Origin: a virus
Reading direction: 5' to 3' (one strand)
IMG/VR virus record: IMGVR_UViG_3300032294_002469
Location: 1-37,191 of that record
Length of the DNA stretch: 37,191 nucleotides
Below the pieces are notes generated by a model. It was not told the origin of the DNA, made no database searches, and saw only the letters and a program-made list of their open reading frames with translations. The first letter of the stretch is position 1, and every line of letters starts with the position of its first letter. Positions 4,978 through 22,985 of the stretch are shown here, one piece after another. A program made the position numbers and the translations under genes.

Positions 4978-7767
4978 ATGATATCTAACGAAGAGATAGA
5001 ATCTTTCCTACACGGGAATGACCCTGAGGAATTTATAGTTGCAATCGAGTTCGATTACGCATCCAATTCAATTTACAAAATTAAAGAAGCTCCTGGTAAA
5101 GGAAAAGAAATACGTAAGGATACCTTTATCCCATTCGCATGGGTTGGTGATTTACGTGGGTTAAAGTTCTATGGTGATTCCAAAGCCGCTCAAAAAGAGG
5201 CGATGACCAAATACGGAATCATGATTGACAAACTTGAAACTCAAGATAATGAAAGACTCAAGAACGGTTTAACCTACATGGTTAAATCACTTAAGGGGTA
5301 TAGAGAATTAATTCAATTTTTCAGAGATGGTGGTTGTGACCCTTGGGGTGAGAAATCAAAAGATAAGATTATGATTTTACCACCTGTTGAGCAATATCTA
5401 ATTTCAAAAGAAAAAAGATTGTTCAAAGGGTTTGAAGATTATGAACAAGTTACCAGACTTGTATTTGACTTGGAGACCAATGCTCTTGACCCAAAAGACG
5501 GTCGTATTTTCATGATTGGAATAAAAACCAATAAAGGATACCACAGAGTTATTGAGTGTCTTGATGAGTCTCAGGAGAAGAATGCCATCGTCGAATTCTT
5601 TAGAGTTATTGATGAAATCAAACCGAGTATCATTGGTGGTTATAATTCAGCAAACTTCGACTGGCATTGGATATTCGAAAGATGTAAAATTTTAGGTGTA
5701 GACCCAAGAAAGGCTTGTCGTTCATTACATCCCCAACATTCATTTACAAGAAAGGATAGTATGTTGAAACTTGCAAACGAAGTTGAAGAATATGTTCAGA
5801 CTTCTATTTGGGGTTATAACGTTATTGATATTATACATGCAGTTCGTAGAGCTCAGGCAATCAACTCGAGCATCAAAGCCGCGGGTTTGAAATACATCAC
5901 AAAATTCATTAACGCCGAGGCACCTGACCGTGTTTACATCGACCATGAAAACATCGGAAAGATGTATGCAAACAAAGAAGAATATTGGTTAAACATACAG
6001 AACGGAAAATATAAAAAGGCGTCAGAATACCAAGACTTAGATATCAAGTTTCCTGGTGTATACATAAAAACCACAGGGGACAATCTTGTTGAGAGATATC
6101 TTGACGATGACTTGGACGAAACATTAAAAGTGGATAAAGAATTCAACCAAGGTTCTTTCTTACTTGCCGCAATGATTCCAACAACATATGAGAGAGTATC
6201 AACTATGGGTACCGCAACATTATGGAAAATGTTAATGTTGGCATGGTCTTATAAACATGGATTAGCAATTCCTGCGAAACAAGGTAAGACAGACTTCGTA
6301 GGAGGTCTTTCTCGACTACTTAAGGTAGGTTATAGTAAGAACGTACTTAAACTGGATTTCTCGTCTCTATACCCCTCTATTCAACTTGTACACGATGTAT
6401 TCCCCGACTGTGATGTAACAGGTGCAATGAAAGGAATGTTAAAGTATTTCCGTGACACTCGTATCAAGTACAAACAGTTGTCTGAAGAATATTATACAAC
6501 AGACCCTGCTAAGTCTGCATCGTATGGTAATAAACAGTTACCGATTAAAATCTTCATTAACTCCATGTTCGGTGCGTTATCAGCACCACAGGTTTATGCT
6601 TGGGGTGACATGTACATGGGAGAACAAATCACGTGTACAGGTAGACAATATCTTCGTCAGATGATTAGATTCTTTATGACAAAAGGATATGTTCCATTGG
6701 TAATGGATACGGATGGTGTGAACTTCTCCACTCCTGATGATGCGAAAGACAGAGTATATGTAGGTCGTGGTTTGAATTGGAAGGTTAAGTTAGGTAAAGA
6801 ATATTATGGTCCTGAAGCTGATGTTGCCGAGTATAATGATATTTTTATGAGAGGTGAAATGGCTCTTGATACAGATGGGGTATGGCCATCATGTATCAAC
6901 CTTGCAAGAAAAAACTACGCGGTTATGGATGCTAAAGGTAAAATTAAGTTAACAGGTAACTCGATTAAATCGAAGAAACTTCCATTATACATCGAAGAGT
7001 TCTTGGATAAGGGAATCAAAATGTTATTGGAAGGAGACGGTAAATCATTCGTTGAATACTATTACGAATACTTACAAAAGATATTTGACAAGAAAATTCC
7101 GTTAAGTAAGATTGCACAAAGAGCAAAAGTTAAGTTAACACTCGATGAATATCGTAAGAGACTAACAACTAAGACCAAAGCGGGTAATAGTATGTCGCGT
7201 ATGGCTCATATGGAATTAGCAATACAAGAAGGGTTAAGTGTAAATTTAGGTGATGTTATTATGTATGTTAATAACGGAACAAAAGCATCTCAGGGTGATG
7301 TTCAGAAGATGACCGTGAAACAAATAAAAGATACAAATGCATTAAATTCATTTAACAATCCCAAAGCAAAACCAATCACAGATGGTGTTATGGTCAACTG
7401 TTATATGTTGGATAAAGATATTTTAGAAAAAGACCCTGACTTAACTGGTGATTATAATGTACCAAGAGCTGTTACAACTTTCAACAAGAGAATCGAACCA
7501 CTTATGGTTGTGTTCCAAGATGAGGTTAGAAATGGTTTAATTGTTAATGACCCTGAACAAAGAGGTATATTCACAACATCTCAGTGTGAGTTAATTAATG
7601 GTCATCCTTTAGGTGATGGTGACCAAGATGATTTACAAAAAGATGTATTGGATATTACAGAACAGGAATTAAAGTATTGGGAAAAAAGAGGTCTTAAACC
7701 TGACTATATGTATGATTTAGCGGAAGAAAATTGGGAAGAAAGGTTAGGACTGTTTCAAACCGTCTGA
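4978..7767 (+). CDS. gp43: Family B DNA polymerase with 3'-5' exonuclease (T4 gp43-like)
   Basis: Replicative polymerase copying phage DNA with proofreading; 929 residues, close to T4 gp43 (898). Exonuclease motifs: Exo I FDLET (D164, E166), Exo II GYNSANFD (N223, D228), Exo III YNVID (Y280, D284). Polymerase motifs: the linker FVGGL near 440-444, Pol A LKLDFSSLYPS (D460), Pol B KIFINSMFGA (K524, N528, G532), Pol C VMDTDGVNFS (D577, D579), and ARKNYAV for the KKY-type motif. Pol C reads DTDG rather than the common DTDS, a variant seen in other family B enzymes, and both catalytic Asp are present. It appears full length and functional. It ends tail to tail with a minus-strand gene, overlapping by 24 bases. 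The leader holds a promoter-like box and a hairpin. Confidence 0.96.
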   Translation: MISNEEIESFLHGNDPEEFIVAIEFDYASNSIYKIKEAPGKGKEIRKDTFIPFAWVGDLRGLKFYGDSKAAQKEAMTKYGIMIDKLETQDNERLKNGLTYMVKSLKGYRELIQFFRDGGCDPWGEKSKDKIMILPPVEQYLISKEKRLFKGFEDYEQVTRLVFDLETNALDPKDGRIFMIGIKTNKGYHRVIECLDESQEKNAIVEFFRVIDEIKPSIIGGYNSANFDWHWIFERCKILGVDPRKACRSLHPQHSFTRKDSMLKLANEVEEYVQTSIWGYNVIDIIHAVRRAQAINSSIKAAGLKYITKFINAEAPDRVYIDHENIGKMYANKEEYWLNIQNGKYKKASEYQDLDIKFPGVYIKTTGDNLVERYLDDDLDETLKVDKEFNQGSFLLAAMIPTTYERVSTMGTATLWKMLMLAWSYKHGLAIPAKQGKTDFVGGLSRLLKVGYSKNVLKLDFSSLYPSIQLVHDVFPDCDVTGAMKGMLKYFRDTRIKYKQLSEEYYTTDPAKSASYGNKQLPIKIFINSMFGALSAPQVYAWGDMYMGEQITCTGRQYLRQMIRFFMTKGYVPLVMDTDGVNFSTPDDAKDRVYVGRGLNWKVKLGKEYYGPEADVAEYNDIFMRGEMALDTDGVWPSCINLARKNYAVMDAKGKIKLTGNSIKSKKLPLYIEEFLDKGIKMLLEGDGKSFVEYYYEYLQKIFDKKIPLSKIAQRAKVKLTLDEYRKRLTTKTKAGNSMSRMAHMELAIQEGLSVNLGDVIMYVNNGTKASQGDVQKMTVKQIKDTNALNSFNNPKAKPITDGVMVNCYMLDKDILEKDPDLTGDYNVPRAVTTFNKRIEPLMVVFQDEVRNGLIVNDPEQRGIFTTSQCELINGHPLGDGDQDDLQKDVLDITEQELKYWEKRGLKPDYMYDLAEENWEERLGLFQTV

Positions 7768-8079
7768 TGATAAGATATACCATGTTCCACCAACAAATCT
7801 GAATTCAATACAAGCAAACTTGTCTGCAACGATTTCGTCGTACTCTTCATCAATTTTTCCAACATCGGGTCTTACAGTTATTTGAGTCATAGCTTTAACT
7901 GTTATATGGTCCGATGTTCTCGAATCTAAAACCACAAATGACCTTGGAACACCACGAATAATACAACAATCTTCCCCGTTTGTACGGTAATCTAATTCCG
8001 ACACCATAGTTACTTCAGAGGTTTCTATGGTGTGTCCGTTAATAATTCTTTTCGATGGTACTGTCTTAATTATTGCCAT
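7744..8079 (-). CDS. Unknown 111-residue protein, probable virion component
   Basis: Not recognised. The protein is short and beta-rich: TVPSKRIINGHTIETSEVTM, an SFVVLDSRTSDHITVKAMTQ stretch, and a closing ACIEFRFVGGTWYILSS, a pattern common in small phage tail or fibre-associated domains. No signal peptide or membrane segment. Its ATG overlaps the stop of the preceding 375-residue gene as TAATG on the minus strand, so it is probably translationally coupled and works with that protein. Its 3' end overlaps the DNA polymerase gene by 24 bases in convergent orientation, with no terminator between them. Confidence 0.6.
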   Translation of the reverse strand: MAIIKTVPSKRIINGHTIETSEVTMVSELDYRTNGEDCCIIRGVPRSFVVLDSRTSDHITVKAMTQITVRPDVGKIDEEYDEIVADKFACIEFRFVGGTWYILSSDGLKQS

Positions 8080-9206
8080 TATATTACATATATTTGACGA
8101 GGCATTGCTCTGAACTTCATTTGTTTATTTAGATTTTCGGCAATCAACGCCTCTCTCTCCATTACCTTTTCTGGTCTCATTCTAGTTAACCAACCTTCAG
8201 CACCTGTCAATTCCTCAATTAACTTCGATTTTTCATCTTTTGCTTCGGTTAGAAGACTTTGATAATCCATTGTAATTTCCGAGTCAGGCGTCTTCAAGTT
8301 ACCACTGTACTTTCCTCTAACTCTTGCTAAAGTTTCTTTACAGTATGCGGTAAACCATCTTCTTACCCATTGTTGTCCTGGCACATTCAAGTCTGTCCAT
8401 GTTAGTTCTTCAATAGGAACATCTGTAGGAAGTTTGATGATGTCAGGATTATTTTTCAAGCAATCGGCTCTACTATCAGGTTCAACATCATAATACCAAT
8501 ACCAAACGGCTTTACCTACGTATGCAGAATAGTTTGACCAGTTAAATCTTCCACCAGGAGTATTATATAAATGAATGAGTTTTTTTCCATCAGGAAGACC
8601 TGTTATTCTATATGTCAAGGAACCTCCTAAAATTCTACTGAGGATATTAGCTTCTTGCATTCTGATAAGATAATCAAAACCTGACATCATAAAGTAAGAA
8701 CCATTATTCCCCATTTGGGCATATCCTGCTTGGTTAGCACCTAAACCAATACCACCAAATCCGAATCCACCAATACCACCCAATCCAAATGCGCTAAACA
8801 ATTGGTCACTAAACCAAAGAAGTTCATTAACTTCTCTACCTGCAGGTATTTCATAAGTTTGTGTGTTAGCACTTAATATGAAATAATCTTTTTTAAGTAC
8901 CCAAGGACCCTCAGTTTGTAAACCAACAATTTTAGAATACGAGTAAGAGAACTGTTGTTCGAAATCCATGGTTCTAGTCACAAGTGCTCTTGCAACAGAC
9001 CTTTCGTTCATGTTCAAATTAACTAAGTTCACCCATTGAGAATCAATTAACCACTGTAAAATATATTCTTCATAATCACCGATGGCTAATTCCATCAATG
9101 AGTCTAACATCTCATCCTCTAACTCAACACTTCTAAGTGGAGCTCCGAGTTGATGTTTGATTCTTGTATATATTTTGGACCTTTCTGGTTCTGGTATTGC
9201 TGCCAT
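8079..9206 (-). CDS. Probable virion structural (neck/connector-type) protein
   Basis: 375 residues. The N-terminus reads YTRIKHQLGAPLRSVELEDE followed by a helix LMELAIGDYEEYI. Openings of the form 'rLG.P...vEL.d......A...y' recur in myovirus head-tail or neck proteins, as far as I recall from T4-like marine phages. Residues 141-170 are Gly-rich (GLGGIGGFGFGG), probably a flexible loop. The C-terminal third (about 300-375) is helical and charged and ends in MPRQIYVI. It has its own TATTTAT box five bases before the ATG. Beyond a likely virion role the exact T4 counterpart is not determined; a terminase or enzyme role is not suggested by any motif. Confidence 0.55.
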   Translation of the reverse strand: MAAIPEPERSKIYTRIKHQLGAPLRSVELEDEMLDSLMELAIGDYEEYILQWLIDSQWVNLVNLNMNERSVARALVTRTMDFEQQFSYSYSKIVGLQTEGPWVLKKDYFILSANTQTYEIPAGREVNELLWFSDQLFSAFGLGGIGGFGFGGIGLGANQAGYAQMGNNGSYFMMSGFDYLIRMQEANILSRILGGSLTYRITGLPDGKKLIHLYNTPGGRFNWSNYSAYVGKAVWYWYYDVEPDSRADCLKNNPDIIKLPTDVPIEELTWTDLNVPGQQWVRRWFTAYCKETLARVRGKYSGNLKTPDSEITMDYQSLLTEAKDEKSKLIEELTGAEGWLTRMRPEKVMEREALIAENLNKQMKFRAMPRQIYVI

Positions 9207-9210
9207 ATCA

Positions 9211-9218
9211 AATAAATA
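9211..9218 (-). promoter_or_regulatory. TATTTATT box upstream of the 375-residue virion gene
   Basis: On the minus strand TATTTATT ends five to six bases before the ATG at 9206. The gap between this gene and the SOD-fusion gene is only 18 bases, and the box occupies eight of them. Confidence 0.5.
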
Positions 9219-9224
9219 TCTTTA

Positions 9225-10763
9225 TTATTCTATTTCGTGAAGAAGTGAATTTAACTTAAATATATATTGGTTTTCGTTTTGTAGAGGATTGTTATTGAAG
9301 ATTAGTATCTTATTACTCTTTGGTTGAATAAAAATTAACCAATCCACGTTGTAAGGTTTAACATTACCTGTATCAAAAAGTTTTACCTTATCATCATCAA
9401 CAGTTGTTGTTGAATATGGTTTTACTTGTGCTGTGTAGGTTTCATCCCCTTTAGTGATTGTCATATCCACTCCCTTGAATGCATCTTCTTTTTGACCGTG
9501 ACCACCAATCTTTTCAACTTTTGCTTCTCCTTCAAAATAATCTTCAAGTTTTTTCTGAACGTTATCTTCAGATTTTTGACCTCTATCCCAAAGTTTTTTT
9601 AATACTTTAATGATGTTAATGAAGTCTTCGTTGTTCTTTGTGAATATATCTTTTTTGAAGTGGTTTAAGGCACTTATAAATCTTTCAACTTCTCTCGAGT
9701 TTCTATTTTCTTTACGACTGAAATCAAAAATTTTATCTTTTCTACCAATCTTTTCAATTTGTTTATTAACCGCTTTGACCAACAAACAAAATGCATTGAA
9801 ATTAGTATTAAGGTTATTTAATATTGACCTTCCTTCTTTTGATTCTACACCATAGAAACCAGACATTTCTTTCGTTGTTCCATCAACCCAAAATTGACTA
9901 AACACTTTTTTCAAAACGTCTGTCACACCATCTTGGTATATTCTTTTAACTTTTGAGTTATTGATTAAATCTTTGAAGAAAAGGATTTCTTTTGCATCAC
10001 AGAACTTAGCATCTGCGGATTCAGTAATTAATTTACCAAACTCGACAGATTCTATAAGTTTTGTTTTAGTTTTTAACTCATACATTTTTGTAACAAAATC
10101 CCAGTTTACAACTTTCCAAAAGTTAACGATGTATTCGTCTCTTTTGTTTCTATACTTCAAGTAATAAGCGTGTTCCCATAAATCTAACCCCAACAGAGGG
10201 AATCCACCTCCTTCGATGATATTCATCAAGGGGTTATCCTGATTTGGAGTCGACATTATTTTTAATGTATTTTTTGCGGTTAGAACTAACCATACCCATC
10301 CTGAACCGAACCTATCTTTTGCAACGTTGTCAAACTTTTTTTTGAATGCGGTAAAACTACCAAATTCTTTGACAATCTTTTTGTAAAGTTCTCCCTCGAG
10401 TTTTTTAGGTGTAGGGGTCAACATGTTCCAAAATAATGCGTGATTGAATGCACCACCAGCATTATTTCTTATTGACTTGTCGTAACGACTTATGTTTTTG
10501 ATGATTTGCTCTAATTCTAAATCCCCGTATTTTTTCTTTGATAAAGCATCATTTAATTTATCCACGTACCCTTTATAATGTTTGTTATAGTGAAAGTTCA
10601 TCGTTTCGGGGTCAATGAACTGTTTGAGGGCTGAGTAGGAATAAGGTAATTTCTCTATTCCAATTTTCTTCATTTCGGTAATCAACTGTTCTTTTTCTTT
10701 GTTAACGTGGTTTTCAAGTATTTGGTGTTCCAGTTGTTGTACCTTTTCTTTTATTTTCTTCAT
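9225..10763 (-). CDS. Mn-type superoxide dismutase fused to a nuclease-like C-terminal domain
   Basis: Residues about 38-229 are an Fe/Mn superoxide dismutase, which converts superoxide to hydrogen peroxide and oxygen. All four metal ligands are present: H58 (in FHYNKHYKGY), H108 (NNAGGAFNHALFW), D194 and H198 (LGLDLWEHAYYLKY). Gateway residues H62 and Y66 are also kept. Gly at the FeSOD Gln69 position together with Gln175 in STPNQDNPLM is the MnSOD arrangement. Residues 1-37 form a charged helix not present in SODs. Residues about 230-512 are extra: mostly helical, then KGVDMTI (D433) and YTAQVKPY (Q446, K448), a D...QxK pattern like Mrr/PD-(D/E)XK nucleases. The nuclease reading is an inference; the SOD is clear. 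It has its own promoter-like box and lies between an SNF2 gene and virion genes. Whether it is packaged or acts in the infected cell is unknown. Confidence 0.88.
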   Translation of the reverse strand: MKKIKEKVQQLEHQILENHVNKEKEQLITEMKKIGIEKLPYSYSALKQFIDPETMNFHYNKHYKGYVDKLNDALSKKKYGDLELEQIIKNISRYDKSIRNNAGGAFNHALFWNMLTPTPKKLEGELYKKIVKEFGSFTAFKKKFDNVAKDRFGSGWVWLVLTAKNTLKIMSTPNQDNPLMNIIEGGGFPLLGLDLWEHAYYLKYRNKRDEYIVNFWKVVNWDFVTKMYELKTKTKLIESVEFGKLITESADAKFCDAKEILFFKDLINNSKVKRIYQDGVTDVLKKVFSQFWVDGTTKEMSGFYGVESKEGRSILNNLNTNFNAFCLLVKAVNKQIEKIGRKDKIFDFSRKENRNSREVERFISALNHFKKDIFTKNNEDFINIIKVLKKLWDRGQKSEDNVQKKLEDYFEGEAKVEKIGGHGQKEDAFKGVDMTITKGDETYTAQVKPYSTTTVDDDKVKLFDTGNVKPYNVDWLIFIQPKSNKILIFNNNPLQNENQYIFKLNSLLHEIE

Positions 10764-10769
10764 ATGTTT

Positions 10770-10794
10770 GGATTATCCATATAATAAATAATCC
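10770..10794 (-). promoter_or_regulatory. TATTTAT box with flanking inverted repeat, upstream of SOD fusion
   Basis: On the minus strand TATTTAT covers 10790-10784, 20 bases before the ATG at 10763. Arms GGATTAT and ATAATCC (10794-10788 and 10776-10770) form a 7-bp inverted repeat overlapping the box. There is no poly-T after it. Confidence 0.5.
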
Positions 10795-10803
10795 AATAAT
10801 TGT

Positions 10804-12555
10804 TTAATGACGCATTTCATTAATTCTTTTTAGAATTTCTTCAGCAGCATCGGGACTGCTTTGGTTATCACCAAGTATGGTAGATATAACCTGTTTTTTA
10901 TTTGCAAGTATGTCATAGATGATTCCTTCGATTGTGTTTTCGAATATTGGATAATACACTAATACATTATTTTTTTGACCGTATCTATATGCTCGGTCCT
11001 CTGCTTGGGAATGGTCTGAAGGTAAAAATGATAAATCATTCATGATGACTGCCTCAGCGGATGTCAATGTTAATCCAACACCTGCAGCTTTAATATTCCC
11101 CACAAAAACTTTAACTTTTTCATTTTCTTGAAATTGGTCAACAGATAATTGTCTTTCGGCTTTTGACATTGACCCATCGAGTTTAACGGATGTTTTGCCA
11201 AAATGTTCACAAATCTTATTCAAAGAATCTGTGAAGTTACAGAATATGATAACTTTTTTATCTTGCTCAATTATATTTTCCGCTAACTCTATTGTTTGGG
11301 CAATTTTTTCGTCGGCAATAATTTGTCTAACTTTAGTGAGTTTTGTAAATTGTACCGTAAGAGATTTAGATTCTTCAGGATTTTTTTCATACCAATTATA
11401 GTAGTCACCCATAACCTCTTCGTATAACTTTGATTTTAATCTCAAGTATACTGGTGTTATGATTTTATCAGGTAAATCCAAAACATCTTCTTTTAATCTT
11501 CTGAGTGTCAACCCTAATGTTCTGTCTCTCAATTCTTCCAAATTGGATGCACCCATAACGTTCCACACTTTTCTTGACCCAACTTTGAATTGGTATCCTT
11601 GACAGTATCTTATAACATATGCCATCCAATTTTTTGCTACGGGGGAGTCAATCAAACTTAAAAGATTGAAGTAATCAATTGGTCTTGAAGTCATTGGTGT
11701 ACCAGTTAACAACCATAATCTATCAACCTTTTTAACAAAGTCGTTAATTAGTTTTGTTCTTTGGGCTTGTGCGTTTTTAATATAGTGTGCTTCATCAATT
11801 ACAACCAAGTCAAAATTTGCACCGAGAATTTGTGATTCATCTTTTTTCTTTGGGTCGTGAAAGTTTTTTATGATATCATAATTTACAATCACGAAATCGT
11901 GGTCAGTTGAAAAGTTTTTACCTTCAGAAATATAAACAGGTCGGTCGGAATAATTTTCAATCTCTCTTTTCCAGTTTATTTTCAGAGTTGCGGGACAAAT
12001 GATTAATATTTTTTTCGCACCTGTTTCAAGAGCCGCAATAATAGTTGAAGTTGTTTTACCCAATCCCATATCGTCAGCCAATATGAATTTTTTATTTTCA
12101 ACTAATTTTTGTATTGCTTCTTTTTGATGTGATAGTGGAGGACGTTTAGAATATTTTTCATAATCTATAACAACATCTTTGACTGTATTGTCTTTGATTA
12201 TTGCTGCCTTCGGTAACCAAAAATCATGAAACTCTTGGTTCTCAGTTATCTTACCCCAAATATGATATGCCTTTTCCTTATCAGCCAAGAGTTTTTCGAC
12301 CCAAACCTTCTCAGGAATTACTGTCATTAATTTGTCGTCCGCTAATTTTTGAGCAAAATATGCATCAAGTATAACCCATTTCTTCGCAACCTTTGGTTGT
12401 TTATCGTGGTTATTTATAATGTATTCAGATTGACTTCTTGTAGGGTAAAACTTTCTATTAAGTTGTGATTTTCTTTTGAGCTCTAATATATAATTGTTTG
12501 CTCCCTCATACTCCTCCAACAATGTCAACGCCTTAGACTCTAAACTGATTTCCAT
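10804..12555 (-). CDS. SNF2-family DNA helicase/translocase
   Basis: Superfamily 2 ATPase of the SNF2 type, 583 residues. Motifs in order: Q-like LSHQKEAIQKL (141-151), Walker A DDMGLGKTTS (K167), Ia ILIICPATLK, DEAH at 254-257 in VVIDEAHYIKN, III LLTGTPMTSR (283-291), IV VIIFCNF, V GNIKAAGVGLTLTSA, and VI QAEDRAYRYGQ (517-527). Both RecA-like lobes are complete. These proteins translocate on duplex DNA or remodel protein-DNA complexes and forks; in T4 the comparable job (branch migration, replication restart) belongs to UvsW, a different SF2 helicase. The N-terminal 135 residues match nothing I recognise. It follows the SET gene by 12 bases, so the two are probably one transcript. Confidence 0.92.
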   Translation of the reverse strand: MEISLESKALTLLEEYEGANNYILELKRKSQLNRKFYPTRSQSEYIINNHDKQPKVAKKWVILDAYFAQKLADDKLMTVIPEKVWVEKLLADKEKAYHIWGKITENQEFHDFWLPKAAIIKDNTVKDVVIDYEKYSKRPPLSHQKEAIQKLVENKKFILADDMGLGKTTSTIIAALETGAKKILIICPATLKINWKREIENYSDRPVYISEGKNFSTDHDFVIVNYDIIKNFHDPKKKDESQILGANFDLVVIDEAHYIKNAQAQRTKLINDFVKKVDRLWLLTGTPMTSRPIDYFNLLSLIDSPVAKNWMAYVIRYCQGYQFKVGSRKVWNVMGASNLEELRDRTLGLTLRRLKEDVLDLPDKIITPVYLRLKSKLYEEVMGDYYNWYEKNPEESKSLTVQFTKLTKVRQIIADEKIAQTIELAENIIEQDKKVIIFCNFTDSLNKICEHFGKTSVKLDGSMSKAERQLSVDQFQENEKVKVFVGNIKAAGVGLTLTSAEAVIMNDLSFLPSDHSQAEDRAYRYGQKNNVLVYYPIFENTIEGIIYDILANKKQVISTILGDNQSSPDAAEEILKRINEMRH

Positions 12556-12567
12556 TTTTATCGGATG

Positions 12568-12942
12568 TTAGATAATAACATCAATAGGATTGAATCCATT
12601 TGCATAATTTATGAATAGTTCTTCACCCTCTTCAATGTCTCGAGTTGAGAAAAATATAAATGTGTCCTCATCTGTATTCCAATTCACATTTTCAGAATCA
12701 GAATGATTGTAGAAAGACCCATAACCCATGACCATTGCATGGTTTGTCCAGTTCTCAGACCTTGGAAAACAAAAACTGTAATTTGCAAATACAGGTATCT
12801 TTTCAAGATTGCTTTGAGGGAATAAAAGGAACGGACATCTTTCGATGATTTCCCCTTTAGTTATTTTTGTAGTACTGAAAACTCCCAATCCGTGGATGGG
12901 GCTATTTCCAATTTTGATTTTTGTTGGTGGTTTGATTTCCAT
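12568..12942 (-). CDS. SET-domain protein, putative protein lysine methyltransferase
   Basis: A minimal 124-residue SET domain. It shows the N-terminal SET signature IHGLGVFSTTKITKGEII (16-33), the pseudoknot motif FYNHSDSENVNW (NHS at 79-81), and the closing DIEEGEELFINY with the catalytic-type Tyr113. SET enzymes transfer methyl groups from S-adenosylmethionine to lysines. The domain lacks pre- and post-SET cysteine clusters, as in other small bacterial and viral SETs. The frame is open upstream to an ATG at 12990, but the extra 16 residues are hydrophobic, translated from the AT-rich divergent promoter region, so I chose the ATG at 12942. It is upstream of the SNF2 gene on the same strand. 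Target protein unknown. Confidence 0.85.
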   Translation of the reverse strand: MEIKPPTKIKIGNSPIHGLGVFSTTKITKGEIIERCPFLLFPQSNLEKIPVFANYSFCFPRSENWTNHAMVMGYGSFYNHSDSENVNWNTDEDTFIFFSTRDIEEGEELFINYANGFNPIDVII

Positions 12943-12971
12943 AGTTGAAGTAAATATAATAAAAATAAAAG

Positions 12972-12979
12972 TATTTATC
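12972..12979 (+). promoter_or_regulatory. TATTTATC box in the divergent promoter region
   Basis: Lies in the 42-base divergent gap between the SET gene and the + strand neck gene cluster, six bases before the ATG at 12985. The minus-strand direction of the gap is A/T only and shows no exact box. Confidence 0.5.
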
Positions 12980-12984
12980 AATAT

Positions 12985-13497
12985 ATGCAAAAGTTAGTAC
13001 CAATTACACGTTTAGGAAAATTCTTTGGTGGTGAAGACTATGCCTTAGATATCGGTATGGGTGAAGAGTGGTTGTTGGGGGATATGAACTTCACTATTAT
13101 TCTTTACAGAATAGATAGATATAAAACTAAAACCGATGACGTTTATGGTGAGGTTTTAGAAGACGGTATTCAGTTTTTGGCACCTGTCGAACTTAAAGGT
13201 TTAGTACAAGTAATGGCACCAACACATAAGTTCTTAGGGAATTCTAAAGTTGAACAACAAGAACCAGGAAATATGAAGTTCTCAATTTATCAAAAAACTC
13301 TTGATGATATGGGTGTTGAGATATTCATGGGTGACTACATAGGATATTATGAAACAGAAGACAGAGTGAGGTATTACTCTGTTGCTGACGATGGATTTGT
13401 TAAATCGGATAATAAACACACTTACGGAGGTTACAAACCGTTCTATAGAACGATTACCGCAACATACGTTAGTGAAAATGAATTTAGAGGAATATAA
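12985..13497 (+). CDS. Probable neck / head-tail completion protein
   Basis: 170 residues, no enzyme motif. Segments such as DDVYGEVLEDGIQF, APVELKGLVQV, MKFSIYQKTLDDMGVEIFMG and GDYIGYYETEDRVRYYSVAD resemble myovirus neck proteins (gp14-type: a 'YGE' segment, then a beta-rich body with a GD-x-I stretch), but I cannot align it with certainty. It is the first of three closely packed genes leading to the tail sheath, where T4-like phages keep their neck and tail-completion genes (13, 14, 15, 3). It is joined to the next gene by TAATG. Confidence 0.5.
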   Translation: MQKLVPITRLGKFFGGEDYALDIGMGEEWLLGDMNFTIILYRIDRYKTKTDDVYGEVLEDGIQFLAPVELKGLVQVMAPTHKFLGNSKVEQQEPGNMKFSIYQKTLDDMGVEIFMGDYIGYYETEDRVRYYSVADDGFVKSDNKHTYGGYKPFYRTITATYVSENEFRGI

Positions 13498-15440: not shown

Positions 15441-18400
15441 ATGGCAACAGCACAAGTTAATCAAAAAGTATTTGTATCCCCAGGAGTTTATACATCTGAA
15501 ACAGACCTTTCGTTTGTGGCTCAGAGCGTGGGTGTTACAACCTTAGGTTTAGTTGGTGAGACTATAAAGGGTCCCGCTTTCGAACCTGTCTTTATAACAA
15601 ACTATGACGAATTTCAAGCCTACTTCGGTGGTACTGAACCTGTAAAGTTTGTGAATACACAAATTCCACAATATGAAGCTGCGTATATCGCAAAGTCTTA
15701 CTTACAACAATCTAACCAATTGTTTGTGACAAGGATTTTAGGTCTTTCAGGTTATGATGCGGGTCCATCGTGGAGTATTAGAACGACCGCAAACGTTGAC
15801 CCAACAACAATCGGTATCGAGGGTGTTGGTCAATCATTTACTGCAAATTTCAGTGGTAACTCATCAGGAGACACTTTTTTATTCACGTCTTCAAGTGCAG
15901 TGTTTAACGATTTTATATCACCAAATTTATATGTACAATATAGAATGAGTGATGGAAGTACGTCTAACCTATTTGCGGACTTTTCATTTAACATCGGTAA
16001 TGTTGCGGACAATCCGTCATTATCTGCTACGACAATTTCATTTTACGGGGCAATACCTGATACAGATTATTGGCCGTTGGTAACACAATATAGTAATCAA
16101 ATTAATGAATATCTTTCTGATACAAACAATTTGGAAACAAACGATTTATCTTCAAACGATAATGACGCTTGGTATTACGCTAATTTTGATAACTACTCAG
16201 GAAACTCTTACTCAGGTTATTCTTTCTATTATTCTGTGACAAACATTGTTACAGGGTCTACAGGAAATTATACAGGAACTATTACAGGTAGTGTGTATGA
16301 ATTCTCTGGTAGTGCATATTCTGAATTCAATAATATGGTAATTGCAACTCTTCGTTCAAGAGGTATTTCTCTTTACGCGAACAGTTCTGATAGTGATTCT
16401 CACGGTCCGATATATCAAGTTAATTCAGGTGGTACTATTGCTGGTTTAAGTGCTGTTACCATGGTTTGTAGTGGTGAGTATTCAGGTGTAACTCAATCAC
16501 CTTATGCAACTTTCTTATTATCGGGTGTAACTAAAGATAATGACGCGTTTCAGTTCGAAACATCTTTAGCTCCAAGTGATTCAAAATATATTACTAAAGT
16601 ATTAGGTGTTGACAATTTTGGTAAATCAAGATTTGAAACTCCTCTTTTTGTTGAAGAAGTATATCCAGGAACTTTGAATTTTGCATATAACCAAGGTTAT
16701 ATCAAAGGTCTTAATTGTCAATTGGTTGGTTTACCAAGTGCTAGAAGTAGAAGTGCTTCGTCAATTGCTTGGAATTTAGAAAGATATCAATCACCTGAGA
16801 CACCATTTTTGGTTTCAGAGTTAAGAGGAAATAAAGTTTATAGATTATTCAAGTTTATCTCAATATCTGATGGTGATTCTGCAAATGTTGAAATCAAAGT
16901 TTCAATTGCTAACTTATCTTTCAATAGTATGAGTTTCGACGTATTAGTTAGAAACTTCTTCGATACTGATGCTAATCCTGTGGTTATTGAAAAATTCACT
17001 AACTGTAACATGGACCCAGCTTCGAACAACTTCGTCGCTAAAAAGATTGGTAGTTCAAACGGTGAGTTTGCTTTACTTTCAAAATACATTATGATTGAGT
17101 TAGCTGATGAGGCACCAATAGATGCAATACCTTGTGGTTTCTACGGTTACACACAAAGAGAGTATGCGTCTCCATTGAACCCATCTCCTTACCCTAAATT
17201 CAAAACAAAATATTATTTCCCTGGTGAAGTTATTGCTAACCCACCATTCAACAGTCCTTTCGGTGGTAATAATGCCGTAGAAAGTCCTGGTGATGTTGTT
17301 AGAAGAAGTTACTTAGGATTTTCAACACAATTTGGAATCGATGAGTCATTCTTAACTTATAAAGGAAAACAAAATCCACAAGCGGGTTGGGAACTTGCAA
17401 CAGATTCTCTACCATGGAATTATCTTTCGAAAGGTTTCCATATGGACTCAGGTGCAACGGTTGTAACAATCGGAAACATCTATGATACAAGTGGACAAAC
17501 AGCATTCGAGTGTGGAGTGGCAGATTTTAGATTTGACCCTGAAACACAAGAAAATCCTTACTACTTTATCTATTCAAGAAAATTCACAGTATGTTTTGCT
17601 GGCGGATTCGATGGATGGGATATCTATGAAGAGTCAAGAACTAACACGGATAGATTCCAATTAGGAGCTTCTGGATTCCTTGCAGGTGCTTTCCCTTCTC
17701 CAAGATATCCTAACGCAACAGGTGATGGTATGTTCAAGAGAATTACTGTTCAAAACAATACCGTAGACTTTGCTAATACTGACTATTACGCTTATTTACT
17801 TGGTATTTTAACATTTGCTAATCCTGAAGCTACGAACATCAACGTATTTGCAACTGCAAGTATTGATTATGTATACAATTCAAATCTTTGTGAAGAGGCT
17901 ATTGATATGGTTCAATTCCAAAGAGCTGATTCGGTTTACATCGTGACTACACCTGACTACAATATGTTCTTACCAGATTCAACAGATACTCAAGCAATTA
18001 TTTATCCTCAAGAAGCGGTAGATAACTTAGATAACACAGGTATCGATTCAAACTACACAGCAACATATTATCCTTGGATATTAACAAGAGATACTGTTAA
18101 TAACACACAAATTTATTTACCAGCAACTGGTGAGGTTTGTAGAAACTTAGCTTTAACAGATAACATCGCATTCCCTTGGTTCGCATCAGCGGGTTACACA
18201 AGAGGTCTTGTTAATTCAATCAAAGCGAGAGTTAAGTTGACTCAAGAAGATAGAGACACACTTTATCAAGGTAGAATCAACCCTATTGCAACTTTCTCTG
18301 ATGTTGGAACTGTAATTTGGGGTAATAAGACTTTACAAGTTGCAGATACAGCACTTAACAGACTTAATGTTAGAAGATTGTTACTTCAAGCTCGTAAGTT

Positions 18401-18668
18401 AATTTCAGCAGTAGCTGTAAGATTAATCTTCGAACAAAACGACCAAGTTGTAAGACAACAATTCTTAGATAGTGTTAATCCAATTTTGGATAGTATTAGA
18501 AGAGATAGAGGTCTTTATGATTTCCGTGTAACAGTTTCTTCAACACCTGAAGACTTAGACAGAAATACATTAACAGGTAAAATTTATCTTAAACCAACGA
18601 AGGCTCTTGAATTTATTGATATTGAATTCTTTATCACACCAACAGGAGCATCATTCGAAAATATCTAA
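15441..18668 (+). CDS. gp18: Contractile tail sheath protein (gp18-like), unusually large
   Basis: The sheath polymer that contracts to drive the tail tube through the host envelope. The N-terminus shows the family opening FVSPGVYTSETDLSFVAQS with GLVGETIKGPAFEPVFI, NYDEFQAYFGG and AAYIAKSYLQQSNQLFVTRI. The C-terminus has the conserved core: FIDIEFFITPTG at the end, preceded by LIFEQNDQVVRQQFLDSVNP, and FRVTVSSTPEDLD. At 1075 residues it is far longer than T4 gp18 (659); the extra length lies in the middle (roughly residues 110-640), which is Ser/Gly/Tyr-rich and beta-like, as expected for surface-exposed insertion domains. It has its own promoter box and a strong terminator directly after the stop, consistent with very high expression. 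Confidence 0.95.
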   Translation: MATAQVNQKVFVSPGVYTSETDLSFVAQSVGVTTLGLVGETIKGPAFEPVFITNYDEFQAYFGGTEPVKFVNTQIPQYEAAYIAKSYLQQSNQLFVTRILGLSGYDAGPSWSIRTTANVDPTTIGIEGVGQSFTANFSGNSSGDTFLFTSSSAVFNDFISPNLYVQYRMSDGSTSNLFADFSFNIGNVADNPSLSATTISFYGAIPDTDYWPLVTQYSNQINEYLSDTNNLETNDLSSNDNDAWYYANFDNYSGNSYSGYSFYYSVTNIVTGSTGNYTGTITGSVYEFSGSAYSEFNNMVIATLRSRGISLYANSSDSDSHGPIYQVNSGGTIAGLSAVTMVCSGEYSGVTQSPYATFLLSGVTKDNDAFQFETSLAPSDSKYITKVLGVDNFGKSRFETPLFVEEVYPGTLNFAYNQGYIKGLNCQLVGLPSARSRSASSIAWNLERYQSPETPFLVSELRGNKVYRLFKFISISDGDSANVEIKVSIANLSFNSMSFDVLVRNFFDTDANPVVIEKFTNCNMDPASNNFVAKKIGSSNGEFALLSKYIMIELADEAPIDAIPCGFYGYTQREYASPLNPSPYPKFKTKYYFPGEVIANPPFNSPFGGNNAVESPGDVVRRSYLGFSTQFGIDESFLTYKGKQNPQAGWELATDSLPWNYLSKGFHMDSGATVVTIGNIYDTSGQTAFECGVADFRFDPETQENPYYFIYSRKFTVCFAGGFDGWDIYEESRTNTDRFQLGASGFLAGAFPSPRYPNATGDGMFKRITVQNNTVDFANTDYYAYLLGILTFANPEATNINVFATASIDYVYNSNLCEEAIDMVQFQRADSVYIVTTPDYNMFLPDSTDTQAIIYPQEAVDNLDNTGIDSNYTATYYPWILTRDTVNNTQIYLPATGEVCRNLALTDNIAFPWFASAGYTRGLVNSIKARVKLTQEDRDTLYQGRINPIATFSDVGTVIWGNKTLQVADTALNRLNVRRLLLQARKLISAVAVRLIFEQNDQVVRQQFLDSVNPILDSIRRDRGLYDFRVTVSSTPEDLDRNTLTGKIYLKPTKALEFIDIEFFITPTGASFENI

Positions 18669-18711: not shown

Positions 18712-19542
18712 ATGAAAACAAATATTAAAGAAGGATTTAAGGACGATAAAACACCAGACATGAAGTATTATGCATTTGACTGGGATGATAATATTGTTCA
18801 TATGCCAACAAAAATTATTGTTAAAGATTCTGAAGGTGAAGAAGTTGGTATGAGTACCGACGACTTTGCAGAACACAGACATCAAATAGGAAAGGAAGAT
18901 TTCAATTATAAGGGACAAACTATTGTTGGTTTCGCTGAAGACCCTTTCAGAAACTTCAGAACTGCAGGTGATAAAGATTTCATCATAGATGCGATGAGAG
19001 CGAAGCAAGGACCAGCATTTGAAGACTTCAAAGAGGCAATCAACAACGGTTCAATTTTTTCTATCATCACCGCTAGAGGTCACAACCCAAACACACTTAA
19101 ACAAGCTGTCTACAATTACATTGTGAATGACTTCAATGGTATAAGTAAGGATGAGTTAGTTAAGAACCTGAAAAAATATAGAACATTTGCAGGAGAAGAT
19201 GAGATGTCAGATAATGAGTTAATCAAGACATATTTGGCTCTCAACAAGTACCACCCCGTTTCTTTTGGGGACGATAAAGGGGCTCAGAATCCCGAGGAAG
19301 CAAAGGTTCGTGCAATGGACGAATTTGTAGATTATATTAAAGGAATGGCCGCAATACTTAATAAAAGAGCCTTCTTAAAAAATGATATAGGAAATAAATT
19401 TGTTCCCAAGATGCCTTCTATAGGGTTTTCAGACGATGACCCTAAAAACATAGAAGTAATGAAAAAACATTTTAATAATAAACCCGATAATAGAGTTAAA
19501 ACTTATTCTACTGCTGGAGGAATCAAAAAAGAAGTTAAATAA
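18712..19542 (+). CDS. HAD-superfamily phosphatase-like protein
   Basis: 276 residues. HAD motif I is FDWDDN (nucleophile D23, acid D25), motif II is IITARGH (T120, R122), motif III Lys is probably K194 or K198, and motif IV is GFSDDDPKN (D241, D242). All catalytic positions are there, so an active phosphohydrolase (nucleotide, sugar phosphate or nucleic-acid end) is likely. A cap between motifs I and II is formed by residues about 30-110. It lies between the sheath and tube genes, directly behind a terminator and without its own TATTTAT box, so it is probably made by read-through at a low level. The substrate cannot be told; a T4 Pnkp-phosphatase-like role is one possibility. Confidence 0.75.
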   Translation: MKTNIKEGFKDDKTPDMKYYAFDWDDNIVHMPTKIIVKDSEGEEVGMSTDDFAEHRHQIGKEDFNYKGQTIVGFAEDPFRNFRTAGDKDFIIDAMRAKQGPAFEDFKEAINNGSIFSIITARGHNPNTLKQAVYNYIVNDFNGISKDELVKNLKKYRTFAGEDEMSDNELIKTYLALNKYHPVSFGDDKGAQNPEEAKVRAMDEFVDYIKGMAAILNKRAFLKNDIGNKFVPKMPSIGFSDDDPKNIEVMKKHFNNKPDNRVKTYSTAGGIKKEVK

Positions 19543-19634: not shown

Positions 19635-20123
19635 ATGGCTGATTTACTAATGAAAATGCCTCTTCCTTACGAACCGAAACGTCAGAATCGTTTTATTTTA
19701 AGATTCCCGTCAAGTTTGGGGATTAATGAGTGGTTTGTGGAAAGTGCTGCAAGACCTCACATAACAATTAACGCAACGGAGATTCCGTTTTTGAACACGT
19801 CAACATATGTTGCTGGTAGATTTACATGGCAAACAATTAACGTAACGTTCAGAGACCCAATTGGTCCTTCTGCGGCTCAAGCGTTGATGGAGTGGGTTCG
19901 TCTATGTGCCGAATCTGTTACAGGTCGTATGGGTTATGCTGCAGGTTACAAAAAAGATGTCGACATTGAAATGTTAGACCCAACAGGAGTTGTTGTTGAA
20001 AAATGGATTATGTATGGTACATTTATGACAGACGTTAACTTCAATCAGTTAGCATACAACCAAGACGGTTTAGCAACGATTGCAGCGACAATGAGAATGG
20101 ATAGATGTGTTTTAGTATACTAA
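19635..20123 (+). CDS. gp19: Tail tube protein (gp19-like)
   Basis: The inner tube of the contractile tail, assembled in hexameric rings around the tape measure. The 162 residues match the T4-like gp19 family in length (T4: 163) and pattern: RQNRFILRFPSSLGINEWFV at the start, then a strand-rich middle with ITINATEIPFLNTSTYVAGR, FTWQTINVTFRDPIGP, a helix ALMEWVRLCAES, and the closing YNQDGLATIAATMRMDRCVL. It has its own promoter-like box sharing a 12-mer with the sheath promoter, and a perfect 12-bp hairpin terminator follows, in keeping with the high copy number of the tube protein. Confidence 0.93.
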   Translation: MADLLMKMPLPYEPKRQNRFILRFPSSLGINEWFVESAARPHITINATEIPFLNTSTYVAGRFTWQTINVTFRDPIGPSAAQALMEWVRLCAESVTGRMGYAAGYKKDVDIEMLDPTGVVVEKWIMYGTFMTDVNFNQLAYNQDGLATIAATMRMDRCVLVY

Positions 20124-20195: not shown

Positions 20196-20939
20196 ATGCA
20201 AGACCAATCCAGAGAATACGGACAAATGAATTTTTCACTTCCCCATGACGTGGTTCCATTACCATCGGGTGGTGTTTTTTATAAAAACAAAAAGAAATCA
20301 TTGAAAGTAGGTTATTTGACAGCCTCTGATGAAAATATATTAATGGGTGGAGTTGAAAACTTAGCAACTAATTTATTAAGAGCGAAAGTTTATGAACCAG
20401 ATGTTAGAATTGAAGACTTACTTGAAGGAGATATTGAAGCGATTCTTGTTTTCTTAAGAAACACTTCTTTTGGGCATGAAATGGTTTTGAATCTGACAGA
20501 CCCACTAACTCGTAAGCCATTCCAAACAACAATTGACCTAAGTGTAATATCAATAGTGAATGGTCAAGAACCAAACGAAGATGGTACCTTTACCATTTCA
20601 CTTCCAAAGTCACAGACTACTATTAAGGTTAAACCTCTATCTTACGGTGAGATTATGGAAATCGAAAGACAAGTCGATGCTTACCCTCAAGGTAGAACTG
20701 CACCAAAAGTGACTTGGAGATTGGCAAAACAAATAGTTGAAATGAATGGCTCAACGGACAAAGGAGAAATCATTAAGTTCATAGACCAAATGCCAATCGC
20801 AGACTCAAAGTTTATTAAAAAGTTTTTGGATGAAAACGAACCTAAATTAGATATGAAGAAGACAGTAACAACCCCATCAGGAGAAAAACTAACGGTTAAT
20901 GTTGGTTTTGGGGCTGACTTTTTTCGCCCTTTCTTCTGA
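20196..20939 (+). CDS. gp26: T4_baseplate family protein (gp26-like), tail assembly chaperone position
   Basis: 247 residues resembling PF12322, the T4 gp26 family. The opening HDVVPLPSGGVFYKNKKKSLKV, then YLTASDENIL, a helix GDIEAILVFLRNTSFG and PLSYGEIMEIERQVD are typical. In T4, genes 26 and 51 lie side by side before the hub and tape-measure genes and help build the baseplate hub. Here the gene ends abruptly with GADFFRPFF and overlaps an out-of-frame ORF by 41 bases; a T6 run at 20919-20924 could let ribosomes slip into that frame, giving a product of about 293-294 residues. This arrangement just before the tape measure is that of phage tail-assembly chaperones (G/GT). It sits directly behind the tube terminator with no clean promoter of its own. 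Confidence 0.85.
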   Translation: MQDQSREYGQMNFSLPHDVVPLPSGGVFYKNKKKSLKVGYLTASDENILMGGVENLATNLLRAKVYEPDVRIEDLLEGDIEAILVFLRNTSFGHEMVLNLTDPLTRKPFQTTIDLSVISIVNGQEPNEDGTFTISLPKSQTTIKVKPLSYGEIMEIERQVDAYPQGRTAPKVTWRLAKQIVEMNGSTDKGEIIKFIDQMPIADSKFIKKFLDENEPKLDMKKTVTTPSGEKLTVNVGFGADFFRPFF

Positions 20940-21078
20940 TTATAGGAAAGGTCAACTAGATGAATTTTACTATTTATCAACATTAATGAACATATCGTAT
21001 ACTGATTTTTTACAGATGCCGATATTCACAAGGAAATATTTGTTGGATAAATGGGTAGAAATTAATAATAAAGACTGA
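20899..21078 (+). CDS. Overlapping 59-codon ORF: frameshift extension or gp51-like protein
   Basis: In the +1 frame relative to the gp26-like gene. The sequence after the overlap, DYRKGQLDEFYYLSTLMNIS then YTDFLQMPIFTRKYLLDKWV, looks like real protein: a helix, then the 'dfl.MP.f.r.yL..k..e.n' pattern seen in the C-terminal parts of tail assembly chaperones. An ATG at 20899 could start it independently, with AGGAG 15 bases upstream (too far for a good ribosome site), but the first residues MLVLGLTFFALSS are those dictated by the other frame and look unlike a native start. Entry by +1 or -2 slippage at TTTTTT is at least as likely. T4 gp51 occupies this map position but is longer (249 residues). 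Confidence 0.65.
   Translation: MLVLGLTFFALSSDYRKGQLDEFYYLSTLMNISYTDFLQMPIFTRKYLLDKWVEINNKD
20919..20924 (+). other. Candidate slippery site (TTTTTT) for +1/-2 frameshift
   Basis: Two Phe codons TTT TTT, followed four codons later by the in-frame stop at 20937-20939. A +1 or -2 slip keeps Phe pairing and enters the downstream frame at TTC GCC CTT. A sequencing indel in the homopolymer is the main alternative. Confidence 0.45.
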
Positions 21079-21116: not shown

Positions 21117-22985
21117 ATGGCCGAGAACGAACAGAGACCACTGGACTATTTTAAGGAACTCACTGACAAGATTGAGGAGTACAAGAATGGTGGGCTGGTT
21201 ACATTCTTCAACGATGTTGCTAAGGCGATTACTTCGTTGGAAAGTTATGGTGCTGAGGTCAATAGAACTTTTGGTGAAACAAGACAAAGAATTGGTGATA
21301 TTAAGACCGCTTTGGCAGACTCACTCCCTGGTATTAACAGATTAGGTGGTGACATCAAAGATGTTCAAACAACTATTACAGATATTGCATTAGCGTCGAA
21401 ACGAAATGTAATTGCTACAACAGAACAAACAGAAAAACTATACGCGGCGGCTCAAGTTACAACTTTATCCGTAAGAACTTTAGTTGATGGATTTGCGGAT
21501 GTCGGGGTTGGTGTGGCACAAATGTCGAAACAACTTGAATCTTCAATCAATTACATTAGAAGTATTGGTGGTAACACGAGGGAAGTATTCAAAGTGGTTT
21601 CATCAAACATGGACCAGTTGAATCGTTATCAGTTCGACGGTGGAATACAGGGGTTAACAAAAATGGCGGCGCAGGCTTCGATGTTGAGATTCGATATGAA
21701 TGAAACATTCAGGTTGGCGGATGGGTTATACAAACCAGAAAGGGCGATAGAGGTTGCATCGGCATTCCAAAGACTTGGATTGGCTGTTGGAGATTTGGCA
21801 GACCCATTCAGATTGATGAATGCATCAATTAACGACCCTCAAGGTCTACAGGACAGTTTAGTAAACGTATCTAAACAGTTTACTTATTTCGATAACCAAA
21901 CCAAAACTTTCAAAATAACTCCTGAGGGTGTTATCAGATTGAAAGAACTTGAAAACCAAACGGGTGTAAGTGCTACTGAAATGACTAAACTTGGATTAGC
22001 GGCAAAAGAAGCGGATGCTAGAATTTCTGCGATTAGTGCTGTTGGGTTAAATGTTAAAGAAGAGGATAAACAATTACTATCGAACATCGCAAGAATGGGT
22101 GATGGTGGTGAATATGAAATTAGTGTAAAGGATAGTCAAACAGGGGAAAGACGTTGGGAGAAACTGACAAGTTTAACACAAGACCAACTGAACGCCACAC
22201 TCAAAGAACAGAAAGAAGGACCAAAAAGTATGGAAGATATTGCTAGGTCTCAGTTAGATTATAGTGAAATGGTTGCTGGCGATGTGAGAGCAATATATAA
22301 TGGATTCATGTACGGTTTTGGTAGTGAGAGGAGAGTAACACAAGAGGTAGAAGGTTTGAGAAAAACTACTGATGCACTCACTGGTACGTTCTCCAAAATG
22401 TTTGGAACAACAAAAACGGGAAAGGCCATGGCTTCAACGGCTATTGATGACATGAAACAATTTTTCAAAGACTTGAATGACCCGAATAAAACCAAGGCTG
22501 ACGCTATGGCATCTTTGTTAGAAAAAGTTAGTGCTCAAAGTCAAAAATTTGGTACTGACTTCAAAGACGGAATGACAGAGTTCTTGAATAAGAGTGCTGA
22601 TAAATTGACTGACAAAACGATGGCCGAATCAGGTGCCGAATCATTAATAAAACAATTATTAAATGATAAAAGAAAACCTGGTGCAATAGAAACTGATGGT
22701 TCTATGTATAGTAATCTTATGGGTAAATCAACACCAATTGATTTAGGCACGAGAACAATGTCGAGAAACGCACTCGGTGACGGAATAACGACAACCAAAA
22801 CAACATCCAAAGTCGATATTGGAGGAAAAATACAAGTAGAATTCACTGCAGCTAATGGTACAGAACTGTCTAAAAAAGTGTTAGATGATTGGGCAAATAG
22901 TCCCCAAACAAAACAATATTTCATGAGTTTAGTTGAACCAAACAACCCAACGAAAGCACCTGTCAATAGGAGTTACGGAAACTAA
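21117..22985 (+). CDS. Tape-measure protein (gp29-type)
   Basis: 622 residues, mainly alpha-helical. Heptad-like stretches include FNDVAKAITSLESYGAEVNR, RLGGDIKDVQTTITDIALAS and GFADVGVGVAQMSKQLESS, followed by helical repeats rich in Ala and Thr, as in tape measures that fill the tail tube and set its length. Gene order (tube, chaperone-like pair, then this gene) supports the call. T4 gp29 has 590 residues, so a tail of about T4's length is expected if the length rule holds. No enzymatic motif is visible, and the short C-terminal tail (PNNPTKAPVNRSYGN) is disordered-looking. Confidence 0.82.
   Translation: MAENEQRPLDYFKELTDKIEEYKNGGLVTFFNDVAKAITSLESYGAEVNRTFGETRQRIGDIKTALADSLPGINRLGGDIKDVQTTITDIALASKRNVIATTEQTEKLYAAAQVTTLSVRTLVDGFADVGVGVAQMSKQLESSINYIRSIGGNTREVFKVVSSNMDQLNRYQFDGGIQGLTKMAAQASMLRFDMNETFRLADGLYKPERAIEVASAFQRLGLAVGDLADPFRLMNASINDPQGLQDSLVNVSKQFTYFDNQTKTFKITPEGVIRLKELENQTGVSATEMTKLGLAAKEADARISAISAVGLNVKEEDKQLLSNIARMGDGGEYEISVKDSQTGERRWEKLTSLTQDQLNATLKEQKEGPKSMEDIARSQLDYSEMVAGDVRAIYNGFMYGFGSERRVTQEVEGLRKTTDALTGTFSKMFGTTKTGKAMASTAIDDMKQFFKDLNDPNKTKADAMASLLEKVSAQSQKFGTDFKDGMTEFLNKSADKLTDKTMAESGAESLIKQLLNDKRKPGAIETDGSMYSNLMGKSTPIDLGTRTMSRNALGDGITTTKTTSKVDIGGKIQVEFTAANGTELSKKVLDDWANSPQTKQYFMSLVEPNNPTKAPVNRSYGN

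Follow-up and report, generated by a model that had tools for sequence, protein, structure and literature searches.

A candidate +1 frameshift giving two forms of a T4-type tail assembly chaperone from a single gene in a virus of aquatic bacteria

The stretch of DNA considered here, referred to below as the window, comprises positions 1-37,191 of the IMG/VR record IMGVR_UViG_3300032294_002469, the sequence of a virus of aquatic bacteria; all coordinates are in window numbering. Genes for the tail sheath and tail tube can be recognised within it (Table 1), the tube protein being 38% identical to its syntenic counterpart in Flavobacterium phage immuto. A gp26-like gene comes after the tail tube gene, as expected for a chaperone of the G/GT type, and overlaps an extension in another reading frame; 38 nt past this extension begins a putative tape measure gene. 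The position of the gp26-like gene just before the tape measure, noted earlier from the sequence, is suggested by synteny with the annotated tape measures of immuto and LIS04; the 622 aa downstream protein had no blastp match to either.

Table 1. Features of the tail gene region of the window, with coordinates
Feature	Position	Strand	Remarks
Sheath gene	15441-18668		Upstream of the gp26-like gene; PHROG and Pfam match
Tail tube gene	19635..20123	+	Upstream; phrog_4542 tail tube, E 3.3e-25
gp26-like short form (TAC-N)	20196..20939	+	247 aa plus stop; phrog_150 baseplate hub, E 1.6e-15; PF12322 T4_baseplate
Upstream element GGGGNNGAN	20910..20918	+	Gly239 GGG codon (20910-20912) invariant; candidate stimulator
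Proposed shift site UUU_CGC_CCU	20922..20930	+	P-site UUU 20922-20924; skipped base C 20925; A-site CGC 20925-20927
T-like extension, +1 frame	20926..21078	+	50 codons plus stop; pN/pS 0.198; invariant L2, P32, R36
0-frame stop TGA	20937..20939	+	End of short form
Putative tape measure gene	21117..22985	+	622 aa; assigned by position only

Other features of the window include a 276 aa gene at 18712-19542, between those for the sheath and the tube, which carries MKYYAFDWDDNIV close to its start; this is presumably akin to the motif of HAD-type phosphatases, and no convincing family match to the gene was found in Pfam or PHROGs. A block of minus strand ORFs at 7744-12990 (111, 375, 512, 583 and 140 aa) breaks up the plus strand genes. 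When sought with a simple pattern, Shine-Dalgarno-like leaders were absent from 22 of the 23 main window genes, the first of which has only a 7 nt leader within the window. Leaders of this type, together with the Flavobacterium phage relatives, hint at a Bacteroidetes-type host; a pattern search for relatives of the gene in cellular genome contigs returned 99 stretches, none of them a relative.

The gp26-like ORF ends GTT GGT TTT GGG GCT GAC TTT TTT CGC CCT TTC TTC TGA. It had been described as stopping right after a run of six T; the run is indeed near the end of the gene (20919-20924), but the 0-frame stop follows 12 nt beyond it. Read in the +1 frame, the sequence has no stop between a point 47 nt upstream of where the 0-frame TGA ends and the TGA at 21076-21078, providing 46 codons past the 0-frame stop, or 50 past the proposed shift point. 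In the -1 frame, a stop comes 20 nt after the start of the 0-frame one, and the extension does not lie in this frame. Joining the extension to codon 243 generates a predicted long form of 293 aa, TAC-NC (P0001).

The short form belongs to the PF12322/phrog_150 homology group, as does the T4 gp26/gp51 family, with a Pfam match to T4_baseplate at E 9.8e-10 (38.9 bits, against a cut-off of 24.5). The long form lengthens the match to phrog_150 from model position 233 to 263 of 282. On the same 282 positions, T4 gp26 covers 14-235 and T4 gp51 covers 13-280, from which it follows that T4 has a separate gene for each form, the paralogues 26 (short) and 51 (long). Alignment of +1 frame tails to a group comprising -1 frame tails and the C-terminus of T4 gp51 gave an hhalign probability of 89.9 (E 1.7e-6, 45 columns). 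By itself, the window tail had no match in Pfam or PHROGs; four of 34 tails matched phrog_634 at E <= 0.1.

A structural model of the long form, based on 46 rows, had a mean pLDDT of 85.4 and a pTM of 0.76, with the tail predicted as three helices with block pLDDT values of 52-73. Among PDB entries, Foldseek ranked 2ob9, the tail assembly chaperone of HK97, first, though the similarity is modest (E 0.22, probability 0.87). On VIA re-alignment, the best rows were 3klu (yqbN), which we take to be a prophage relative of tail chaperones, with a Z score of 5.4, and 2ob9 with a Z score of 5.2 over 93 residues, a level attainable by a common arrangement. Among predicted viral structures, the model matched T4-type baseplate hub proteins, and searching for solved structures with the long form sequence found no match. 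The modelled similarity to 3klu and 2ob9 lends modest support to a chaperone fold, short of proof. The gene most likely encodes the assembly chaperone for a contractile tail of the T4 type, in a short form of 247 aa and a long one of 293 aa.

Relatives were drawn from viral contigs, the best 80 of 521 forming, with the window, a close set of 81 sequences. In all 81, the end of the 0 frame is similar and the +1 frame extends 133-142 nt beyond the 0-frame stop, confirming both the 46-residue extension proposed from the window alone and its frame. The tail consists of 50 codons in 74 cases, 48 in six and 51 in one; in two sequences (L022 and L042) the 0-frame stop is two codons further on and the +1 frame tail is unchanged. 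Past the 0-frame stop, the pN/pS of the extension across 42 unique sequences was that given in Table 1 when read in the +1 frame, as compared to 0.98 and 1.56 in the other two frames, which hold 156 and 136 stops. Such values indicate purifying selection in the +1 frame only. The three invariant residues of the tail are common to 34 diverse extensions.

The codons at the end of the gene are unusually constant. TTT CGY CCT is present in all 81 close sequences (CGT in 45, CGC in 36), so the motif UUU_CGN lies in the 0 frame inside the overlap; in some of these relatives the site reads TTC TTT CGY. Of the nine codons that close the gene, five (GGG 239, TTT 243, CCT 245, TTC 246 and TTC 247) do not vary among the 55 unique sequences; over residues 2-235, taken for comparison, this holds for four of 119 conserved degenerate codons. 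The constraint on codons 244-247 is explicable because they are read in both frames. The same cannot be said of GGG 239, which is upstream of the shift, in a region where four loci have a +1 frame stop: GGG makes up just 8.3% of Gly codons in these loci, yet is used for Gly239 throughout.

A wider set was assembled by adding 180 contigs from scans with the immuto, LR756508 and Mel-JY01 proteins, two of which were confined to the best 80 matches; counts from it are samples, among the matches listed. Of 270 sequences, 269 matched, the exception being the T4 region (L089), and 263 loci were scored, with the window itself (L081) and the incomplete L112, L188, L189, L225 and L254 left out; LIS04 and S-SM2 fell outside the codon-pattern search and their frames were examined separately. 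A +1 continuation is found in 259 of the 263 (ten of which run to the contig end), the other four comprising two -1 arrangements (S-SM2 and XacN1) and two split genes (L179 and L185). Hence the frame relation that the earlier note suggested comparing among relatives is kept in distant contigs as well as the 80 close ones, and it also occurs in the genomes of the isolates immuto, Mel-JY01, GXN1 and LIS04. Among the matches listed, the site codons are TTT TGG CCT (133), TTT CGT CCT (45), TTT CGC CCT (36) and CTT TGG CCT (35), with rarer instances of CTA TGG CCT preceded by TTT (four), TTT TAC CCT (two) and single cases of others. The conserved unit is therefore YUU, then CGY or UGG, then CCU, wider relatives mostly having YUU_UGG_CCU. 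In public records (L084 3746-3988, L083 3740-3976, L086 3742-3958), the tail appears as a truncated or separate hypothetical protein, for immuto and Mel-JY01, or is missed, for LIS04.

These observations are best read as a programmed frameshift in a tail chaperone gene, the interpretation that had been offered with the G/GT comparison; very probably, one gene is expressed as two forms of a T4-type tail assembly chaperone through a +1 shift, like lambda G/GT. The frame relation, the conserved site, the selection on the tail and the homology are properties of the sequences themselves; the occurrence of the slip, its efficiency and its role in assembly are what we infer. Most ribosomes would terminate at 20939 to yield TAC-N. 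A smaller share would slip one base forwards while tRNA-Phe sits on UUU in the P site and the CGC in the A site is yet to be read; the tRNA could then re-pair on UUC, and translation would continue through GCC CUU UCU UCU GAU to yield TAC-NC, with a predicted helical C-terminal domain homologous to that of T4 gp51. By analogy to lambda G/GT, the long forms, few in number, may recruit tube protein, while short forms may coat the tape measure. The predicted tryptic peptide across the junction in the window's clade is LTVNVGFGADFFALSSDYR following a +1 shift. Across the different contexts, re-pairing on UUU or UUC after a +1 slip is possible in 170 of 174 unique sequences, and in the other four CTA is preceded by TTT, where TTT_C can slip.

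It is quite unlikely that the extension is instead a small gene in its own right (the listed ORF at 20899-21078), started at an ATG belonging to it or by ribosomes re-initiating close to the gp26 stop, and never fused to the short form. That ORF does open at an in-frame ATG in the window, upstream ATGs in the tail frame are present in 64 of the 81 close sequences, including the window, and small separate ORFs are annotated in the public records of Mel-JY01 and S-SM2. However, such an ATG is absent from the other 17, and in four of the 81 there is no ATG, GTG or TTG at all for the tail; similarly, up to the 0-frame stop, no ATG is found in 93, and none of the three start codons in 47, of 180 wider unique contexts, up to three of which are not +1 loci. 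In the four close loci devoid of starts, the +1 frame is interrupted by a stop 23 nt short of where the 0-frame stop ends, leaving only the final 23 nt of the gene for the shift. Furthermore, T4 gp51, the C-terminus of which is homologous to the tail, is a single continuous short-plus-tail protein. Relatives having a second gene with its own start, which the earlier note considered evidence against a frameshift, do exist: in L179 (2714-3034) and L185 (2717-3005) the tail is in the third frame, with an ATG of its own just past the gp26 stop and extra N-terminal residues. In a tree of 39 rows, though, these two split loci form a supported clade that falls within the +1 group, apparently reflecting loss of the frameshift. 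The same tree implies two changes for the -1 arrangement and three for the +1; T4 gp51 and XacN1 are on long branches in it, and the joining of LIS04 with GXN1 is doubtful.

The same frame could also be reached if the ribosome slipped back two bases (-2) along the T run, a mechanism phage Mu is described as using in a passage of PMC5009743, and one that had been proposed from the window sequence as an alternative to +1. The TTT TTT of the window permits it, and re-pairing on TTT is feasible in 128 of the 174 unique contexts. Yet it would require pairing with UCU or UCC in 13 of them, and in Streptococcus phage GXN1 the site is TTC TTT CGT, cases which +1 re-pairing fits; the -2 option is consequently regarded as quite unlikely, and the +1 option is the one favoured. 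The two differ in the peptide expected to span the junction, predicted to be ADFFALSSDYR after a +1 shift and to contain one extra Phe, giving ADFFFALSSDYR, after a -2 shift. Slippage of RNA polymerase on the T run, producing the long form from altered transcripts, would suit the T6 of the window and the T7 found in 89 of the 174 contexts, but the same frame relation is seen in 46 contexts where the longest T run is only three or four, making this very unlikely. These 46 contexts, along with the close relatives having TTC TTT CGY, also speak against TTT TTT, or the T6 run, being the signal, as was originally thought. Least credible of all, despite the homopolymer near the break, is a sequencing or assembly error or the decay of a formerly single gene: the relation is the same in 80 other contigs and the four isolates, many relatives have no long T run, and the tail is under purifying selection.

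What might promote a +1 slip at this site is suggested by the sequences on either side of it. In the window's own clade, the shift may be tuned by the invariant upstream GGGG. This lies 8 nt upstream of the P-site codon, a greater spacing than that of the Shine-Dalgarno stimulator of prfB, and is not kept in sister clades; a Shine-Dalgarno role also sits poorly with the lack of such leaders in 22 of the 23 window genes. The rarity of the A-site codon in the window fits with slow decoding: of 446 Arg codons counted over 23 ORFs, the one at the site is the sole CGC. Across the 80 relatives' loci, CGC accounts for 25 of 7,477 Arg codons elsewhere and is at the site in 35 of 80. CGT, which occupies the other 45 sites, is not rare (764 of 7,477), and does not fit. 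Moreover, CGY may be forced by the +1 reading, as GCC or GTC, meaning codon rarity need not have been selected for slippage. A candidate stimulatory hairpin, CCUUUC/GGAAAGG, was rejected: it folds well in the window (z -2.63), but just 11 of 40 unique sequences retain all six of its pairs, the 5' arm is invariant and there is no compensating change, and it was judged too near for a usual stimulator because it starts directly after the A-site codon. No conserved RNA structure was found at the shift site in the 40 unique close sequences.

Programmed frameshifting is a well known viral strategy, although the forward direction is less common. Chaperones of the lambda G/GT type likewise have a short and a frameshift-extended form encoded between the tail tube and putative tape measure genes; in lambda and similar phages the shift is usually -1, and the proteins are of a different family from gp26/gp51. 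The tail assembly chaperones of T4-like phages have reportedly been described by Vladimirov, Gautam and Davidson in 2022. The T4 gp26 and gp51 proteins are the same short and long pair from the same family as those of the window, but T4 makes them from two paralogous genes, where the window would use a single gene with a +1 shift. A passage of PMC10885494 credits Vladimirov et al. 2022 with reporting short and long genes for the chaperones of T4-like phages, and a passage of PMC12846349 cites the work for polyT -1 signals in T4-like genes. Cyanophages resemble the window in having one gene, gp26, with an out-of-frame tail homologous to the gp51 C-terminus, present as a small 'gp51' ORF. Among S-SM2 and 79 contigs, the best 80 having been kept as a sample, the tail is in the -1 frame in all 80 of the loci scored out of 81 (L087, L270-L349; the incomplete L343 is left out, and counts exclude ten T4 gp51 relatives and L350). 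There, the gene ends with T_TTT_TTC plus one codon, the same T6C string as in the window, but in a different codon phase. XacN1 has a -1 arrangement as well.

The site itself has parallels elsewhere. According to a passage of PMC5052127, the +1 shifts of PA-X in influenza A and of plant amalgaviruses take place at the motif UUU_CGN, where tRNA-Phe is thought to re-pair on UUC. The window shares with these the UUU P site and CGN Arg A site, here in a bacterial virus gene for a protein unrelated to those of PA-X and the amalgaviruses. The CUU_UGA +1 shift of prfB, as outlined in PMC3711429, has its P-site codon in common with the CUU_UGG of the sister clades, where a slip from CUU to UUU would likewise be possible. 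By contrast, prfB has a stop codon in the A site, where there is a sense codon here (CGY, CGC in the window, or UGG in sister clades), and it has a Shine-Dalgarno-like stimulator, none being seen directly upstream of the window's site. According to PMC5009743, tail chaperone frameshifts of -1, -2 and +1 were already known, with T4 named as the exception, and a statement in PMC10885494 has it that no general motif is agreed for +1 sites. A literature search by title and start of abstract, with Vladimirov et al. 2022 outside its coverage, turned up no mention of +1 shifting in a chaperone gene of the gp26 type; the +1 signal in such a gene may be the new part.

More broadly, though with less assurance than attaches to the frameshift itself, it seems somewhat probable that members of a single family of T4-type chaperone genes reach the tail by opposite routes: cyanophages by a -1 shift at T_TTT_TTC; the window's clade, the Flavobacterium phage relatives and GXN1 by a +1 shift at UUU_CGY or YUU_UGG; and T4, with its two genes, and L179 and L185, where the gene is split, without any shift. 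In this scenario, slippage in the P site ahead of a sense codon would suffice for the +1 shift, possibly adjusted by the GGGG in the window's clade, and UUU_CGN, as used by eukaryotic RNA viruses, would have arisen independently in a bacterial DNA virus. The proposal thereby assigns a likely function to a pair of genes divided or overlooked in public annotations, and the gp51 of cyanophages, remarked upon in 2010 as only ~20% of normal length (in a passage of PMC3037559), would be accounted for as the out-of-frame tail of gp26. These loci make up a large natural collection of putative +1 sites whose A-site codon is a sense one and, if the proposal is true, the costs and benefits of -1 shifting, +1 shifting, duplication and splitting could be compared within a single family.
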